A DNA stretch of 64,000 bases, taken from the NCBI RefSeq assembly GCF_002119685.1, contig NZ_CP021108.1, positions 124,001 to 188,000 of the forward strand. Reading direction: 5' to 3'. The notes under the pieces were generated by a model that saw only the letters and a program-made list of their open reading frames with translations, was not told where the DNA came from and did no database searches. The stretch is from Bordetella genomosp. 8. Its GTDB lineage: Bacteria > Pseudomonadota > Gammaproteobacteria > Burkholderiales > Burkholderiaceae_B. Every line of letters starts with the position of its first letter. Position 1 is the first letter of the stretch. A program made the translations under genes and the position numbers. Positions 4,120 through 10,466 of the stretch are shown here, piece after piece.

Positions 4120-5805
4120 CTACATGCGCTGGGGCGCGTTGACGCCCAGCAGTGCGAGCCCGTTGGCCAGCACCTGGCGGGTGGCCGACGCCAGGCGCAG
4201 GCGGGCGCGCTTCAGGGCGATGTCGTCGACCAGCACGCGTTCGGCGTTGTACCAGGCGTGGAAATCGGCGGCGCAGTCGCGCAGCCAGAAGGCGACGTGA
4301 TGGGGCGCCAGTTCCTGAGCGGCGAGCTGGATGACGTTGGGGAATTCGGCCAGTCGCTGCATCAGGGCGAATTCGGTCGGCGCCGTCAATCGTTCGATGC
4401 CGGCGTCGGCGATGTCCTGCTCGCCTTCGCCCGACTGCCCGACCATCGAGCAGATACGCGCATGCGCGTACTGGATGTAATAGACGGGGTTTTCGTCGCT
4501 TTGCGACAGCGCCAGGTCGACGTCGAAGACGAACTCGGTATCGGCGCGGCGCTGGATCAGGAAGTAGCGCACGGCGTCGCGGCCGACCCAATCGATCAGG
4601 TCGCGCATGGTGACGTAGCTGCCGGCGCGCTTGGAGATCTTGACCTCCTCGCCGCCGCGCATCACCTTGACCATCTTGTGCAGCACGTAGGCGGGATAGT
4701 CCTTGGGTATGCCCAGGTCCAGCGCCTGCAGGCCGGCCCGCACGCGCGCCACCGTGCCGTGGTGATCGCTGCCCTGGATGTTCACCGCGCGGTGGTAGCC
4801 GCGTTCCCATTTGTTGACGTGATAGGCCACGTCCGGCACGAAATAGGTGTAGCCGCCTTCACGCTTGCGCATGACGCGGTCCTTGTCGTCGCCCGTGCCC
4901 AGTTCCGTGGTGCGCAGCCACAGCGCGCCGTCCTGTTCGTAGGTGTGGCCGCTGGCGACCAGCCTGCTCACCGTCTGTTCGACGCGGCCGCTGGTATACA
5001 GCGAGCTTTCCAGGAAGAAATTGTCGAAGGTCAGGTCGAAGGCCTGCAGGTCGCGGTCCTGCTCGCGGCGCAGATAGGCCACGGCAAAGCGGCGGATGGC
5101 GTCGAGGTCGTCGACGTTGCCGCTGGCGATGGTTTCCTCGCCGTCGGCCGCGCGGACGGCGGCGCCCGCCATGAAGTCCCTGGCGATATCGACGATGTAT
5201 TCGCCCTTGTAGCCGTCTTCCGGCCAGCCTTCGGCGTCGGGGCCGATGCCCTTGGCGCGGGCCTGCACGCTGATGGCCAGGTTGTGGATCTGGTTGCCGG
5301 CGTCGTTGTAGTAGAACTCGCGCATGACGTCGTGGCCGGCGGCGTCGTACAGGCGGCAGATGGCGTCGCCCAGCGCGGCCTGGCGCGCATGGCCGACGTG
5401 CAGCGGTCCGGTGGGATTGGCCGAAACGAATTCCACCAGCACCTTTTCGCCGTGGCGCGCGGCGCGGCCGAAGGCGTCGCCCTGTTGCGCGATGGCGGCC
5501 AGCACGGCCTGCCGCGCGGCGGCGGTGATGCGGATGTTGATGAAACCGGGGCCGGCGATCTCCGCGGCGTCGACGATGTCGCGTGCACGCGGGTCGGCGG
5601 ACAGCGCGTCGACAATCGCTTGCGCCAGTTCGCGCGGATTGCGTTTGGCGGCCTTGGCCACTTGCATGGCCACGTTGGTGGCCACGTCGCCGTGGGCCGC
5701 GACCTTGGGGCGTTCCAGCAGGATGGTGGGGCGCGCCTCGGGCAGCAGGGTGCCGACGGCGTCTTGCAGCAGGGAAACGAGAAGGTGCTGTTGCTCAGGG
5801 AGCAT
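4120..5805 (-). CDS. argS: Arginyl-tRNA synthetase
   Basis: A 561-residue class I aminoacyl-tRNA synthetase that charges tRNA-Arg in the cytoplasm. An N-terminal ArgS-specific Add-1 domain comes first. The HIGH-type motif is HVGH within [15 protein letters not shown] (about residues 130-145), the KMSKS-like loop is KISKRAG, and the C-terminal anticodon-binding DALR domain ends the protein. No residue expected to be catalytic is missing. It is the first gene of the argS-SPOR-dsbA unit; a TATCAT hexamer about 50 nt upstream is a possible -10. Confidence 0.97.
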
Positions 5806-5960: not shown

Positions 5961-8900
5961 TCAGTGCGCGATGTCCAGGTCCAGCGTGCGGCGCAGCCAT
6001 GCGCGGTACGCCGCCATGTCCACGGTGCCGACCACGGGGTTGCCGCCGTGCGCCCAGCCGTCCACGCGGCGGATGACGGCTTCCACTTCGGCGCGCGCGG
6101 CGTCGCCGTACTGGGGATGCAGCCCCTGATACGGCACCACGCGATGGCCGTCGGCATTGCCGACGGCGCGGTCGTCGTTGTTGGCACGGGCGCGTCGGCC
6201 GCGTTCGTCATGCAGCAGGGGATTGTCGACCCGTTGAAACGCCGCGGGTGGCGGCAGGAACGCCGCGCCCGCCGATTCCGCCTGCTTGAGCATCCAGGCC
6301 AGCGCGACGTCGGACAGATCGCCGCCGGGACGCGCGGTATCCGCATCGGCGCCGCGCGGCAGGTAGCCCCCGCCGATGTCGCCATGGGCGCCGATGAAGG
6401 GCGCGGTGACCCGCATGCGGCCGTTGGTGCCGTTGGTGCGATCGGTACCATCGGCGCTGTTGGCATCATTGGCGCCATTGGTGTCATTGGTGCGACCGGT
6501 GCCCTCGGTGCCGGCCCGCTCGGCCTGGACGATCAGCGGAAAAACGGCGCGATGCTCATGCAGCGCGATCGCATGCGCGATCCACCGCCATTCGGCGGAA
6601 GCCGCGAAGTTGTAGTCCGCATCCCCCGATCCCAGGAAACCGAACTGCGCCACCGTGTCGAACAGGCCGATGAAGCGCAGATCCGCGCAGGCGGTCACCG
6701 TGCCCTGCACAGGGTCGCGCACCCAGAACCTTCCGTTCCGATAATGATCGGCGATCATGTTGCTGAAATGCAGGGCCAGGGCCGCCCCGCGCGAATAACC
6801 CAGCAGGTCGATCGCCACGCCCGCCTGCCCGTTCCATGCGACGTGCCGCAGCAATGCAGCCCATTGCGTTTCCAGGATGGCGGGCGCCGATCCCGCGGTG
6901 GCGGCATCCACCCACCGCGGTGACGTGAAGCCGGGCCCATGGTGATAGAAGATGGGACCGTCCCGGTACCAGTTTCTCATCAGCCCGACGTTGGTGCGCG
7001 CGGGGATATCGCGGTTGGTGCCGTCGAACGCGAACAGGAGCAGGCCGAACGGGTCGATGTGCCGGCGCGGCTGTTGGTCTGCGTAACCATAGGCCTGGGT
7101 GTCGGGCCGCGGGCCCGCGGGATCCGGTTCCAGATAATGCCCCATGCGTGGATCGTAGGTGCGCAGATAGTTGTCATGCAGGCCTGTCGCCGGATCGTGG
7201 AGATGGCCCGGCTGGCGCAGCGGCATGGCAAGGTCGCCGTCGGTCGCCAGCACGGCGCCGGTGGGCGACCACAAGGCGCGCCAACGCAGCCGGCGCGACG
7301 CATCGGTGACGGCGTGCGGCAGGCCGATGGCGTCCGCGTGGATGGCATGGAAGACCGGCGCGGCGGTCGCGCGGCCACGTGCGTTGACGCCGGCGCCGGC
7401 GCGGACCGTGCTGCTCAATGGACGCGGCTGTGGATAGACGATCATGGCGATCGGCACCCAGCCCGCGTACACGAAACGCCGCGTGACGCCGACACCGCCC
7501 GCCGGCAGCGGCTGCGCGATCGCCGCCAGCCGGTTCGATGCGTACAGGTATTCCTCCGTACGCCCGTCGGCACGGCGGCGTATGCGTTCGCCATAGGCGT
7601 TGTGCGTATAGCGCGCCAGCTCCCGTCCACGGACGCCCGCAACGGCCCCGGCCCCGGCATCGGCACCAGCACCAGCACCAGCACCGGCTCCGCCTTGGCC
7701 GCGTGTCACGCTGGCCAGCCTTCTGTCCGGACCATAGCGCAGGCGCAGATCGCCGTGCGCGGTCGGCAGGCCGCTGGCATCGCGCCGTGGATGATGCACC
7801 TGCGTGCCGGCGTCGTCCCCCACCGCGTACGCATCGCCCGTCCGGCGCCAGGCGATCCGCCACGCGTGATGCGCTTCGGCCTCGCCATCCTTGCGCAGCG
7901 TCGCCGTGGCGGCCAGCAACTGGCCCTGCGCATCGCGTCCATAGCCGTAGGCGCCCTGCCAGCCGGCCACCCGCAGCGTCTCGTCCACGATGCGTCCCGC
8001 CGCGTCGTAGCGCAGGCGTTGCAGCAATACGGGCGGCCGATCGGGCGCCGAGGGATCGTCCACCACCAGCGCCTCGAGCGCGCCGTCCCGCGCGACGCCG
8101 CGCGTGCGCAGGCCATTGCCATGCCGGTACCCTCCCGCCGGCAGCGCACGCAGCAGCTCTTGTTTGCGGTCGCCATCGTGCCAGGCGACGCGGCTGACGC
8201 GTCCGCTGGCGTCGTATGCGTAAGTCAGATACCCGCCTTCCGGGAGATCGTGCCGGACGACGCGGCCCGCGTCATCGCGCCGATAGCCTTCGCGATACGC
8301 ATAGGCGATATCGCCCGCCTGCAGCGCGGGGCGATGCACGATGCGCGCGGTCAGCCTCCCCTGGCCGTCGTGGCGCCGCGTCTCGCGTTCGTGAGGATGG
8401 ACGATGCTGGTGGGCGTCGCGCCATGCCAGGCAACGACCGTGCGCAGGGCGCCCGCCGCCGAATGCATGATGACTTCGACGGGGCGGCCGTCGTCGTCAT
8501 ACGCGTAGCGCCAGATGTCGCCGTTCGCGTAGCGGCGTTCCGTCACGCGGCCGTGGCTGTCGTGCCGGCGTGTTTCCTGGCCCGTGGCGTCGGAAGACCA
8601 GGCGGCCAGGGGCGCGCCCGGATGCGCCGCATCGAAGGTCAGCGACAGGCCCGCCCAACCCGAACGCGACGCGCGCAGGTGCAGCAGGCGGCCATCCGCG
8701 GCGCGTATGAAACGCAGCTCATTGACCCGGGTCGCATTCCCATGCGCGTCGTATTCCGCATGCAGGCCGGGCGCCGCGCATCCGGGACATCCCGCGCCTT
8801 CCACGCGAAGGAGCACCGGCCGCCCGCCACGGATGGCGGTGTGGAAGTCCGTCGCGCCGGACGGTCCGTGTACGCGGGTCAGGCCGATAGCTCCGCTGGC

Positions 8901-10010
8901 TGACGGCGCGGCCACATAGCTGATTTCCACGCGGTCGCGGGCCGACTCCGGCGTGCCGTGCGTCGACAGCACCGCGCGGCCCTGCGCGTCATAGGCCCAG
9001 CTGTGCGTGCGCAACGGTGGCCTGTCCGGCGCCGTGCGCCATGAAATACCGGTCAGCAGATAGGGATCGCCGCCGTGCAAGCCGGGTTCGTGCGCATATT
9101 CCCTGCGCCAGCCGGCGGGATGGTCGACCGCGACAAGGCGGTAGGCACGGCGGTAGGCACGGCGGTCAGCACGGCGTTCGGGTGGCACATCGTGGGTGTA
9201 GACGTAGGCGCCATAGCGGCTGTCGATGCGGGCCAGGCGGGCGCCCGCGCCGCCCGTTTCGTAGACGAAGCGCAATGCCTCGCCATGCTGATCGACGACC
9301 TCCGTGATGTAGGCGTCCTCGCCTTCGGCGCGTACGATGCGAACATGATCGCCGCCGCGATCGCCGATGCGCGTGAGCCGTCCGCGGCCATCGAAGTCCA
9401 GCACGCGTCCGTTCGCCCAGTGCCAGCGCCAATGCCAGGACGCTGGCGTTGGCAGCGGCATTGGCATCGGCGTCTGCGTGGGCATGGGCGTTGGCGTTCG
9501 CACGGACGCGGACGCAGCCACGGCCATGGCCGCGTCCCGCGCGCCGCCGGCGCGCTCCAGGCGCCCTGTTCCTGGCGCAAGCGGCCGACACGCCGTGGCG
9601 CAATCGAAATCGACGCGGCTGCCGTCGGCCTGCGCGATCTGCACCCGCGTGCCGCCATCGCGCGCATGCAGGCGCGTGTCGTAGGACAAGGTCCACCCGC
9701 GTCCCAGCGGGCCGCCGCGCGGGTCCATCGCGTTGTAGTGCCGCACGATCTCCAGGCCGATGCTGGCGCTCGCGCCGGGAAGGTCCACTTCACGCTGGTA
9801 TTTGTTGCCGGACACCAGATGGATGGGATTGCCCGCGCCCAGGTTCAACGCCGGCGCCGCGCTGCCCTGCGTGGCCACGCCGCCCGCCGGGCACGGCTGG
9901 CCCAGGCGCGATGCGGAGCAAACACCTTCGGCGGCGTCCGTGGCCGAGGCGGACACCGCCATCGATGTGATCATCAACGTGGCGATCGCCACGGTCCTGC
10001 TTCTACCCAT
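5961..10010 (-). CDS. Secreted RHS-repeat protein with C-terminal DUF2235 (Tle1-like) hydrolase
   Basis: A protein of 1349 residues. Residues 1-23 form a Sec signal peptide (MGRSRTVAIATLMITSMAVS, then ASA). Next is a DUF6531-type segment (NPIHLVSGNKYQREVDL), then many RHS/YD repeats (YDAxGRV-type) and the RHS-core terminus (YLEPDP ... HIDPFGL). Directly after, from about residue 990, comes a DUF2235 alpha/beta-hydrolase: FDGTNRD, nucleophile elbow GYSRGAA (Ser near 1070), FDTVAQFG and GAHGDIGGGY (His/Asp near 1207). All motifs of the Tle1 phospholipase family are intact. An AGGAGG site 6 nt before the ATG at 10010 fixes the start. The shell is inferred to encase the hydrolase. No VgrG, PAAR, Tc-toxin partner or immunity-like gene is adjacent. 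Four in-frame short repeats make the length unstable. Confidence 0.88.
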   Translation of the reverse strand: MGRSRTVAIATLMITSMAVSASATDAAEGVCSASRLGQPCPAGGVATQGSAAPALNLGAGNPIHLVSGNKYQREVDLPGASASIGLEIVRHYNAMDPRGGPLGRGWTLSYDTRLHARDGGTRVQIAQADGSRVDFDCATACRPLAPGTGRLERAGGARDAAMAVAASASVRTPTPMPTQTPMPMPLPTPASWHWRWHWANGRVLDFDGRGRLTRIGDRGGDHVRIVRAEGEDAYITEVVDQHGEALRFVYETGGAGARLARIDSRYGAYVYTHDVPPERRADRRAYRRAYRLVAVDHPAGWRREYAHEPGLHGGDPYLLTGISWRTAPDRPPLRTHSWAYDAQGRAVLSTHGTPESARDRVEISYVAAPSASGAIGLTRVHGPSGATDFHTAIRGGRPVLLRVEGAGCPGCAAPGLHAEYDAHGNATRVNELRFIRAADGRLLHLRASRSGWAGLSLTFDAAHPGAPLAAWSSDATGQETRRHDSHGRVTERRYANGDIWRYAYDDDGRPVEVIMHSAAGALRTVVAWHGATPTSIVHPHERETRRHDGQGRLTARIVHRPALQAGDIAYAYREGYRRDDAGRVVRHDLPEGGYLTYAYDASGRVSRVAWHDGDRKQELLRALPAGGYRHGNGLRTRGVARDGALEALVVDDPSAPDRPPVLLQRLRYDAAGRIVDETLRVAGWQGAYGYGRDAQGQLLAATATLRKDGEAEAHHAWRIAWRRTGDAYAVGDDAGTQVHHPRRDASGLPTAHGDLRLRYGPDRRLASVTRGQGGAGAGAGAGADAGAGAVAGVRGRELARYTHNAYGERIRRRADGRTEEYLYASNRLAAIAQPLPAGGVGVTRRFVYAGWVPIAMIVYPQPRPLSSTVRAGAGVNARGRATAAPVFHAIHADAIGLPHAVTDASRRLRWRALWSPTGAVLATDGDLAMPLRQPGHLHDPATGLHDNYLRTYDPRMGHYLEPDPAGPRPDTQAYGYADQQPRRHIDPFGLLLFAFDGTNRDIPARTNVGLMRNWYRDGPIFYHHGPGFTSPRWVDAATAGSAPAILETQWAALLRHVAWNGQAGVAIDLLGYSRGAALALHFSNMIADHYRNGRFWVRDPVQGTVTACADLRFIGLFDTVAQFGFLGSGDADYNFAASAEWRWIAHAIALHEHRAVFPLIVQAERAGTEGTGRTNDTNGANDANSADGTDRTNGTNGRMRVTAPFIGAHGDIGGGYLPRGADADTARPGGDLSDVALAWMLKQAESAGAAFLPPPAAFQRVDNPLLHDERGRRARANNDDRAVGNADGHRVVPYQGLHPQYGDAARAEVEAVIRRVDGWAHGGNPVVGTVDMAAYRAWLRRTLDLDIAH
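6423..6512. repeat. 9-bp coding repeat, 10 units, inside the DUF2235 domain
   Basis: Ten head-to-tail 9-bp units (type GTTGGTGCC / ATTGGTGCC, degenerate). On the coding minus strand they give ten tripeptides of the xT(N/D/G) type (GTE, GTG, RTN, DTN, GAN, DAN, SAD, GTD, RTN, GTN) at about residues 1167-1196. The stretch lies between the hydrolase beta-strand IVQAE and the catalytic His motif, probably as a surface loop. Unit size keeps the reading frame. Confidence 0.9.
7645..7692. repeat. 6-bp coding repeat encoding an Ala-Gly run in the RHS gene
   Basis: Eight 6-bp units (GCCCCG/GCACCA type) that encode an alternating Gly-Ala run (GAGAGAGADAGAGA) at about residues 773-788 of the RHS protein. 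It is in frame and falls between YD repeats, so it probably forms a flexible loop on the shell. Confidence 0.75.
9138..9173. repeat. 12-bp tandem repeat, 3 units, in the RHS gene
   Basis: Three 12-bp units (GCGGTAGGCACG twice, then one with two changes). The minus strand reads them as the repeated tetrapeptide RRAY/RRAD at about residues 280-291. In frame. Confidence 0.8.
9445..9498. repeat. 6-bp coding repeat encoding a Pro-Thr/Met run in the RHS gene
   Basis: Nine degenerate 6-bp units (GGCGTT/GGCATT type) giving alternating Pro-Thr and Pro-Met dipeptides (TPTPMPTQTPMPMPLPTP) at about residues 171-189, just before a WHWRWHW segment of the RHS shell. Confidence 0.75.
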
Positions 10011-10115
10011 GCCGGCCTCCTGCTGTTTCGGCAGGCCCAAGCATGCGATTGGCAGTCTTCCCGCGTTGGGGTAGTGTATGGATTCGTCTCTCGTGTAAGA
10101 CCCTGGAATCACATC

Positions 10116-10466
10116 ATGCTCATCTCGTTCCGCTCGAAAGCCGGCTCGGAAGTGCTAATGCTTTCGGATCACGCCGCACCGCTGCTGAAGGCAGCGGGAA
10201 AGTCCCTGCCCGATGGGTTCCCGGAGCGCGGCGTGTTCACGCCCGACCAGCTGCAACAGGCGATCGCCGGCATCGAAAAGGCGGTGGCGCTGGCGCCGAA
10301 GAATCCGGAAGACCAGGACAAGGACAGCGATCCAGACGCGCCCGCCGCGCATCCGATGTCGCGGCCCGTGGGCCTGCAACAACGTGCCTATCCCTTGCTG
10401 GACCTGCTGAAGAAAGCGCTGGACAAGGGCGTGAACGTCACCTGGGAATCGGCCTCGTCCTGGTAA
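10116..10466 (+). CDS. DUF1840 family protein
   Basis: A 116-residue soluble protein starting MLISFRSKAGSEVLML and ending with a DLLKKALDKGVNVTWES helix, which is the layout of the DUF1840 family of betaproteobacteria. No enzyme motif is visible and the function is unknown. The ATG at 10116 is chosen because the conserved LISFRSKA begins there. It is divergent from the RHS gene, with 105 nt between the starts. Confidence 0.8.
   Translation: MLISFRSKAGSEVLMLSDHAAPLLKAAGKSLPDGFPERGVFTPDQLQQAIAGIEKAVALAPKNPEDQDKDSDPDAPAAHPMSRPVGLQQRAYPLLDLLKKALDKGVNVTWESASSW

Follow-up and report, generated by a model that had tools for sequence, protein, structure and literature searches.

An RHS shell with a Tle1-like hydrolase and an export signal at a fixed argS locus in Bordetella genomosp. 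8 and related bacteria: a possible domesticated envelope enzyme

RHS proteins are by default treated as polymorphic toxins with immunity partners. The combination of RHS repeats, DUF2235 and export by Sec and the type II secretion system (T2SS) is known already: Zhang et al. (2012; PMC3482391) name DUF2235 Tox-ABhydrolase-1 and list it together with RHS repeats and with export by T2SS or the type VI secretion system (T6SS), for example in Thauera Tmz1t_2699. This part of a preliminary description of this DNA, which had proposed an unusual toxin type, is thus not new. For the related T6SS phospholipase Tle1, the domain DUF3304 is reported to occur in the immunity proteins (Tli1; PMC13133936). 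The aspartyl autocleavage mechanism at the DPxGL motif of RHS proteins is known from Rhs1 (PMC8636562), and bacterial teneurin-like RHS proteins are described as immunity-paired toxins, some of them with signal peptides (PMC13018210). No earlier description of an argS-linked, immunity-free or shell-less RHS-Tle1 protein was found in the open-licence literature.

The window, a stretch of 64,000 nucleotides from Bordetella genomosp. 8, carries on its minus strand an open reading frame (5961..10010; ATG at 10010, stop at 5961, with an in-frame GTG upstream at 10112), and its product of 1349 residues combines, by the reading frame itself, Pfam, NCBIfam and comparison with relatives, a signal-bearing RHS shell with a Tle1-like hydrolase. 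All of its features are read on the minus strand. A Sec-like signal peptide covers residues 1 to about 23-27 (9930..10010), as judged from the sequence and a hydropathy rule, and is followed directly by Cys31 and Cys40 (9891..9920), a possible disulphide, with cysteine in 49 of 54 aligned rows and gaps in the other five. DUF6531 (residues 60-135; 9606..9833; Pfam, E 5.7e-19) leads into the YD/RHS shell (residues 136-880; 7371..9605), recognised by Pfam RHS_repeat; the modelled structure of P0100, a homologue, resembles RHS and Tc shells of known structure. Within the shell lies CPGC, that is Cys408 and Cys411 (8778..8789), each a cysteine in 52 of 54 rows and possibly a second disulphide. The Rhs-associated core (NCBIfam Rhs_assc_core, residues 916-990; 7041..7265) ends in DPFGL (residues 986-990; 7041..7055), a predicted aspartyl autocleavage site in which D986, like the upstream D963, is invariant in all 54 rows. 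By analogy with Rhs1, the chain would be cut after this motif.

The hydrolase begins immediately past DPFGL (residues 991-1349; 5964..7040) and is matched by PF09994, T6SS_Tle1-like_cat, formerly DUF2235, at E 3.3e-18. It has the catalytic fold and the Ser-Asp-His motifs of that family, namely GYSRG with the nucleophile Ser1073 (6792..6794), FDTV with Asp1118 (6657..6659) and GAHGDIGGGY with His1209 (6384..6386), and all three residues are invariant in 54 of 54 rows. A low-complexity, in-frame insert (residues 1166-1200; 6411..6515) occupies a hydrolase loop; it consists of tandem repeats, falls in columns with 85% gaps in relatives, from which it is mostly missing, and has a pLDDT under 50. 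Short in-frame tandem repeats enlarge loops of both shell and hydrolase in the window copy (6411-6515, 7643-7690, 9137-9176 and 9417-9498). The Pfam scan of the protein gave no PAAR, VgrG, NHL or other delivery domain. The preliminary description had named the signal, the DUF6531/RHS body with a core ending in DPFGL, the complete DUF2235 hydrolase, the lack of PAAR and the lack of an adjoining immunity gene between argS and DUF1840, and the Pfam, NCBIfam and hydropathy results support each of these; it had also placed the nucleophile in the right motif, but numbered it 1070 where counting from the ATG at 10010 gives 1073.

The model of P0100 (pLDDT 86.2 by residue, pTM 0.64) gives a whole-shell rmsd of 14-16 Å to solved shells, with only the C-terminal half fitting at about 3 Å. 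Of the 359 hydrolase residues, 264 can be aligned with 4o5p, presumably the Tle1 of P. aeruginosa, in which 742 residues are ordered; the fold also matches VgrG-bound Tle1. Judged by length and alignment only, no stretch is left long enough for the membrane-anchoring module of Tle1, so that the protein would correspond to the catalytic part alone, with no equivalent of the other roughly 480 ordered residues that include this module. The apparent lack of the anchoring part may mean that no cognate immunity protein is needed.

A protein database search gave 227 relatives at E<=1e-3, and this number, together with the full conservation of the catalytic residues across the 54-row alignment, excludes a chance architecture. 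The C-terminus is constant in kind. PF09994 is carried by 119 among the best 120 of the 227 relatives, the sole exception (P0105) having an apparent frameshift at its end, and no relative with the same N-terminus and a different C-terminal domain was found among these 120. Mean pairwise identity in the 54-row alignment is 55% for the hydrolase versus 47% for the shell, which is the opposite of what a swapped toxin tip gives. Similarly, of 15 close pairs that were chosen, some sharing a row, two were saturated and the other 13 all give a smaller omega for the hydrolase (0.03-0.15) than for the shell (0.14-0.39); argS gives 0.02-0.09 in the same comparison. The hydrolase is thus under stronger purifying selection than the shell. 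Of 99 main reading frames that end in a stop codon, all 99 have the Ser and His motifs and 97 the Asp motif. The term 'polymorphic', used in the preliminary description, is not supported, given the constant C-terminus of the relatives listed and a fixed, largely vertically inherited locus. Several relatives are already annotated as 'phospholipase effector Tle1', and the results caution against such automatic naming.

The genomic setting is equally constant. In the window, argS (4120..5805, minus strand) is the conserved downstream neighbour and a DUF1840 gene (10116..10466, plus strand) the conserved divergent upstream neighbour, both identified by Pfam and by locus comparison; no immunity gene adjoins on either side. 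Further Pfam assignments are a SPOR protein, DsbA, LysE and a Cys/Met metabolism enzyme on the argS side and an amidase beyond DUF1840. Among 268 genomes of the Alcaligenaceae family to which Pusillimonas noertemannii belongs, a set without the window's own genome, 153 gave some match at E<=1e-3, of which 128 count as carriers (E<1e-20) and the other 25 are weak. With the window's neighbours as queries, 101 loci from 100 of the 128 carriers were compared, a flank being called tight when DUF1840 was divergent and under 900 bp away or argS ran in the same direction under 700 bp away. Both flanks are tight in 82 of the 101 loci and at least one in 98 (exceptions L084, L106 and L111). The gap to argS has a median of 115 bp (5-95%: 40-222 bp) in the 88 loci with argS tight, so there is mostly no space for a further gene.

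Genomes without the gene show the other side of this picture. A search for argS in 30 non-carrier genomes yielded 28 loci, two genomes giving none, and DUF1840 lies upstream and divergent of argS in 24 of the 28 (L146, L159, L160 and L161 had no DUF1840 match). The empty site measures 103-503 bp in 23 of the 28, and one further locus (L150) has 1072 bp with a 249-aa frame; no RHS remnant was matched in any of the 28. With only 103-503 bp at most empty sites, carriers and non-carriers differ here by this one gene, and no partner travels along with it. Distances between RHS-Tle1 proteins track those between argS proteins (Mantel r 0.822 over 86 usable of 101 loci; 0 of 999 permutations as high, the best at 0.165). 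Presence and absence require 10 changes on the argS tree as against about 27 in shuffles, none of 500 being as low; this FastTree tree has 122 rows, includes 28 of the 140 non-carriers and does not distinguish gain from loss. The locus is therefore fixed and the gene largely vertically inherited. It is also dispensable, as the ten or so gains or losses on the tree sampled indicate. No match was found among 72,556 plasmid records at E<=1e-20. A viral scan with exact short patterns also found none, although this method is insensitive, as it returned one genome locus where the genome search returned many.

Departures from the standard arrangement are few and varied. In L058, L066, L091 and L094 the inserts between the gene and argS are, by eye, ordinary metabolic, transport or receptor genes, and in two loci a small lipoprotein-like gene lies there on the opposite strand (L080:10542-10907 and L105:10915-11406, in strand-of-gene coordinates, as are those that follow for extra copies). 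Three genomes have extra RHS copies beside the main gene (L081:12174-18507, L090:10533-12773 and L098:10257-12350), the last copy in these three genomes being a shortened RHS protein with a hydrolase remnant lacking GxSxG, and the degenerate frame of L081 sits between the gene and argS. Copies in L124, L106 and L129 are short or split-looking. That of L106 (G222), 916 aa long, begins in a signal-like way and retains the complete hydrolase but only some of the shell; neither DUF1840 nor argS was matched nearby. One genome (G225) has two contigs (L060, L061) that both carry DUF1840 and the RHS gene, which could reflect duplication or a mixed assembly, and a very long open frame in G060 (L131) was discarded, since it arises artificially from a run of N.

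Outside the family, the hydrolase profile was run against 399 genomes of the order, of which 61 match at 1e-10. Beyond the family, nine genomes score between 1e-62 and 1e-74 and three between 1e-37 and 1e-40, followed by a gap to 1e-24 or weaker. Read by eye, these twelve carry RHS-Tle1 genes with a signal-like start where the gene start is present, several of the loci being cut by contig ends or holding only part of the gene. Their neighbours are ordinary genes (by eye, proB-like in L192; gluQ-like and a small membrane protein in L202 and L204). Two small hydrophobic proteins encoded directly downstream of the gene in one of these loci (L202:11872-13191) are possible partners.

Calling of the signal peptide relied on a crude hydropathy rule rather than on SignalP. 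By this rule the window protein is positive, as are 102 of 119 relatives from their annotated starts, against 11 of 86 argS controls. At the level of loci, a Sec-like signal is found from some ATG in 68 of 78 usable cases, only from a GTG or TTG in six more and not at all in four, a lenient count in which any upstream start was allowed. The conserved pairs Cys31/Cys40 and Cys408/Cys411 fit a putatively exported protein.

Neither a universal secretion system nor a partner could be tied to the gene. A Pfam scan of the ten genes around the window gene gave neither PAAR nor VgrG, and no TcB-like gene was found among the same ten. PADLOC at E<=0.01 returned no match for the protein, DUF1840 or the shell-less form described below. 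The T6SS marker VipB is rarer in carriers (50/128) than in non-carriers (91/140; Fisher p 3e-5, kinship uncorrected), and a T6SS linkage was rejected on this comparison across the 268 genomes. GspD matches stronger than 1e-100, read off the table by eye, occur in 51 of the 128 carriers, with three more partial; weaker GspD-like matches were taken to be other secretins. With 74 of 128 carriers lacking such a GspD secretin, T2SS was rejected as a universal, obligatory exit. Neither marker was found in 47 of the 128, absences that are uncertain as genome completeness was not given. One of the 47 is G127, with a genome of 3.9 Mb and the locus on a contig of 3.85 Mb. The lack of both markers suggests a mature protein that remains periplasmic or gets to the cell surface by another route. 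DUF3304 occurs in 12 of the 268 genomes, all of them non-carriers, and its presence in 0 of 128 carriers rules against unlinked immunity of the Tli1 type, the one family searched for.

Some variants have no shell at all. In L108 (G072) and L109 (G067) the protein encoded between DUF1840 and argS is only about 400 aa long, with a signal-like start, two cysteines and a hydrolase bearing GFSRG, LFDTV and GAHADIGGG; shell and core are gone. The two form one pair on the argS tree, beside six gene-free genomes and near eleven full-length carriers, and on this placement shell loss is the likeliest origin of the short form. In the protein database, eight further shell-less clusters (P0122-P0129; 403-419 aa, with 59-94% identity across the full query) all have a signal-like start, two cysteines and the catalytic motifs, with no DPxGL. 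Such an apparently uncaged and exported relative, with its motifs intact and no immunity gene linked to it, gives the strongest hint that the enzyme may not be lethal to its owner. It also makes the word 'toxin' of the preliminary description less likely to apply.

On balance, we favour, at slightly better than even confidence, a domesticated, largely vertically inherited lipase or esterase of the envelope, built from toxin parts, exported and RHS-caged, and probably not an immunity-paired weapon. The protein would be exported by Sec and fold in the periplasm into an RHS β-shell, possibly held by disulphides C31-C40 and C408-C411. As in known Rhs proteins, the aspartyl motif would cut the chain at DPFGL, leaving the hydrolase as a separate polypeptide held by the shell. 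We infer that the enzyme cleaves an acyl ester, most likely in phospholipids or lysophospholipids, whether of the envelope or of its surroundings, that it is caged and that it is harmless to self. More tentatively, at somewhat under even odds in our judgement, the RHS-cage and Tle1 toxin design could have become a resident envelope enzyme, a latent, shell-held lipase that acts on behalf of the producing cell, for its membrane or its nutrition, does without an immunity protein and has had its cage discarded in one lineage.

Several observations weigh against the domesticated enzyme. Every part of it comes from toxin families, and since P. aeruginosa Tle1 sent to the periplasm by Sec is reported to kill E. 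coli (PMC13133936), a relative without a cage should be harmful to the cell that makes it. Immunity could also be unlinked and unlike DUF3304. Small genes do lie near the gene in a few loci, for two hydrophobic proteins downstream in L202, outside the family, and for a lipoprotein on the opposite strand near argS in L080 and L105. The gene is dispensable by its ten or so gains and losses, and the copies in L124, L106 and L129 look short or split. Lastly, purifying selection and a constant C-terminus would also fit a weapon against eukaryotes or unlike bacteria.

Such a weapon is the main rival to domestication, although we regard it as rather unlikely. It would be a secreted weapon or digestive enzyme against eukaryotes (fungi, protists) or unlike bacteria, leaving by Sec and then by T2SS or vesicles, protected by the shell until contact and free of immunity as its target is not kin. 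The signal peptide fits this proposal, Tc and T6SS systems use RHS shells for toxin delivery, a strong GspD is present in the 51 carriers (plus three partial), and DUF2235 is catalogued as a T2SS/T6SS toxin (PMC3482391). It sits poorly with the 74 carriers that lack such a secretin and the 47, including G127, with neither T2SS nor T6SS markers; moreover, the shell can go while the enzyme remains, and a fixed single-gene locus is unusual for weapons.

A contact-dependent polymorphic RHS toxin with immunity unlinked or unrecognised, in line with the preliminary description's polymorphic toxin, is improbable: its domain architecture, Rhs core and DPxGL are those of such toxins, and teneurin-like bacterial RHS proteins, some with signal peptides, are immunity-paired (PMC13018210), but the C-terminus is constant among the relatives listed, neither linkage nor the empty-site comparison gives a partner, DUF3304 is missing from all 128 carriers and shell-less derivatives keep intact motifs. 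A T6SS effector loaded through an unrecognised adaptor is very improbable, for while the domain is Tle1-like, its fold matches VgrG-bound Tle1 and 50 of the 128 carriers have the marker, a Sec signal is the wrong address for cytoplasmic loading, no PAAR was matched and the marker is rarer in carriers than in non-carriers (kinship uncorrected). There is just as little to recommend a decaying RHS-toxin relic kept by inertia, given the nearly complete motif counts and the low hydrolase omega, even with about ten presence/absence changes, degenerate extra copies (L081, L090, L098), short or split-looking copies (L106, L124, L129) and low-complexity expansions in the window copy.

An RHS-lipase that stands alone at a fixed locus in about half of the genomes searched in a family (128/268) breaks the RHS-toxin default. 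Since an exported single gene is inherited at one position with no protective partner found, a toxin design may have been put to another use. Furthermore, shell-bearing and shell-less natural versions of one enzyme make the role of the RHS cage for its cargo directly testable.

Compared with described systems, the family is close to the Tox-ABhydrolase-1 RHS proteins of Zhang et al. (2012; PMC3482391), with which it shares RHS repeats and a DUF2235 α/β hydrolase; there they are treated as polymorphic toxins, mainly of T6SS, whereas the family described here has a constant C-terminus, a fixed argS locus, descent together with argS and shell-less derivatives. With the PAAR/VgrG-RHS effectors of T6SS (RhsA, Tse5, RhsP, Rhs1, Tse15) it has in common the RHS shell fold and the DPxGL core, but the window protein differs in its signal peptide, constant C-terminus and lack of a PAAR or VgrG match or an adjoining immunity gene. 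The T6SS phospholipase Tle1, represented by the structures 4o5p (presumably P. aeruginosa Tle1), 6sjl (Tle1) and 9j3f (TleB), is described as T6SS-delivered, with a membrane-anchoring module and Tli1 immunity carrying DUF3304 (PMC13133936), counterparts of which were not found in the present analysis. The TcC shells of Tc toxins superpose on the C-terminal half of the P0100 shell at 2.8-3.2 Å over 482-509 residues, but the window gene is stand-alone, with no TcB-like gene among the ten neighbours scanned. Bacterial teneurin-like proteins likewise have an RHS/YD shell bearing a C-terminal domain and, in some cases, signal peptides, although they are described as variable toxins with a downstream immunity gene and FN-plug/NHL domains (PMC13018210), none of which was seen in the window protein (NHL by Pfam, not the authors' models). 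If the protein is indeed a resident envelope enzyme, it would offer a bacterial parallel to the teneurins, whose RHS toxin architecture is no longer toxic.
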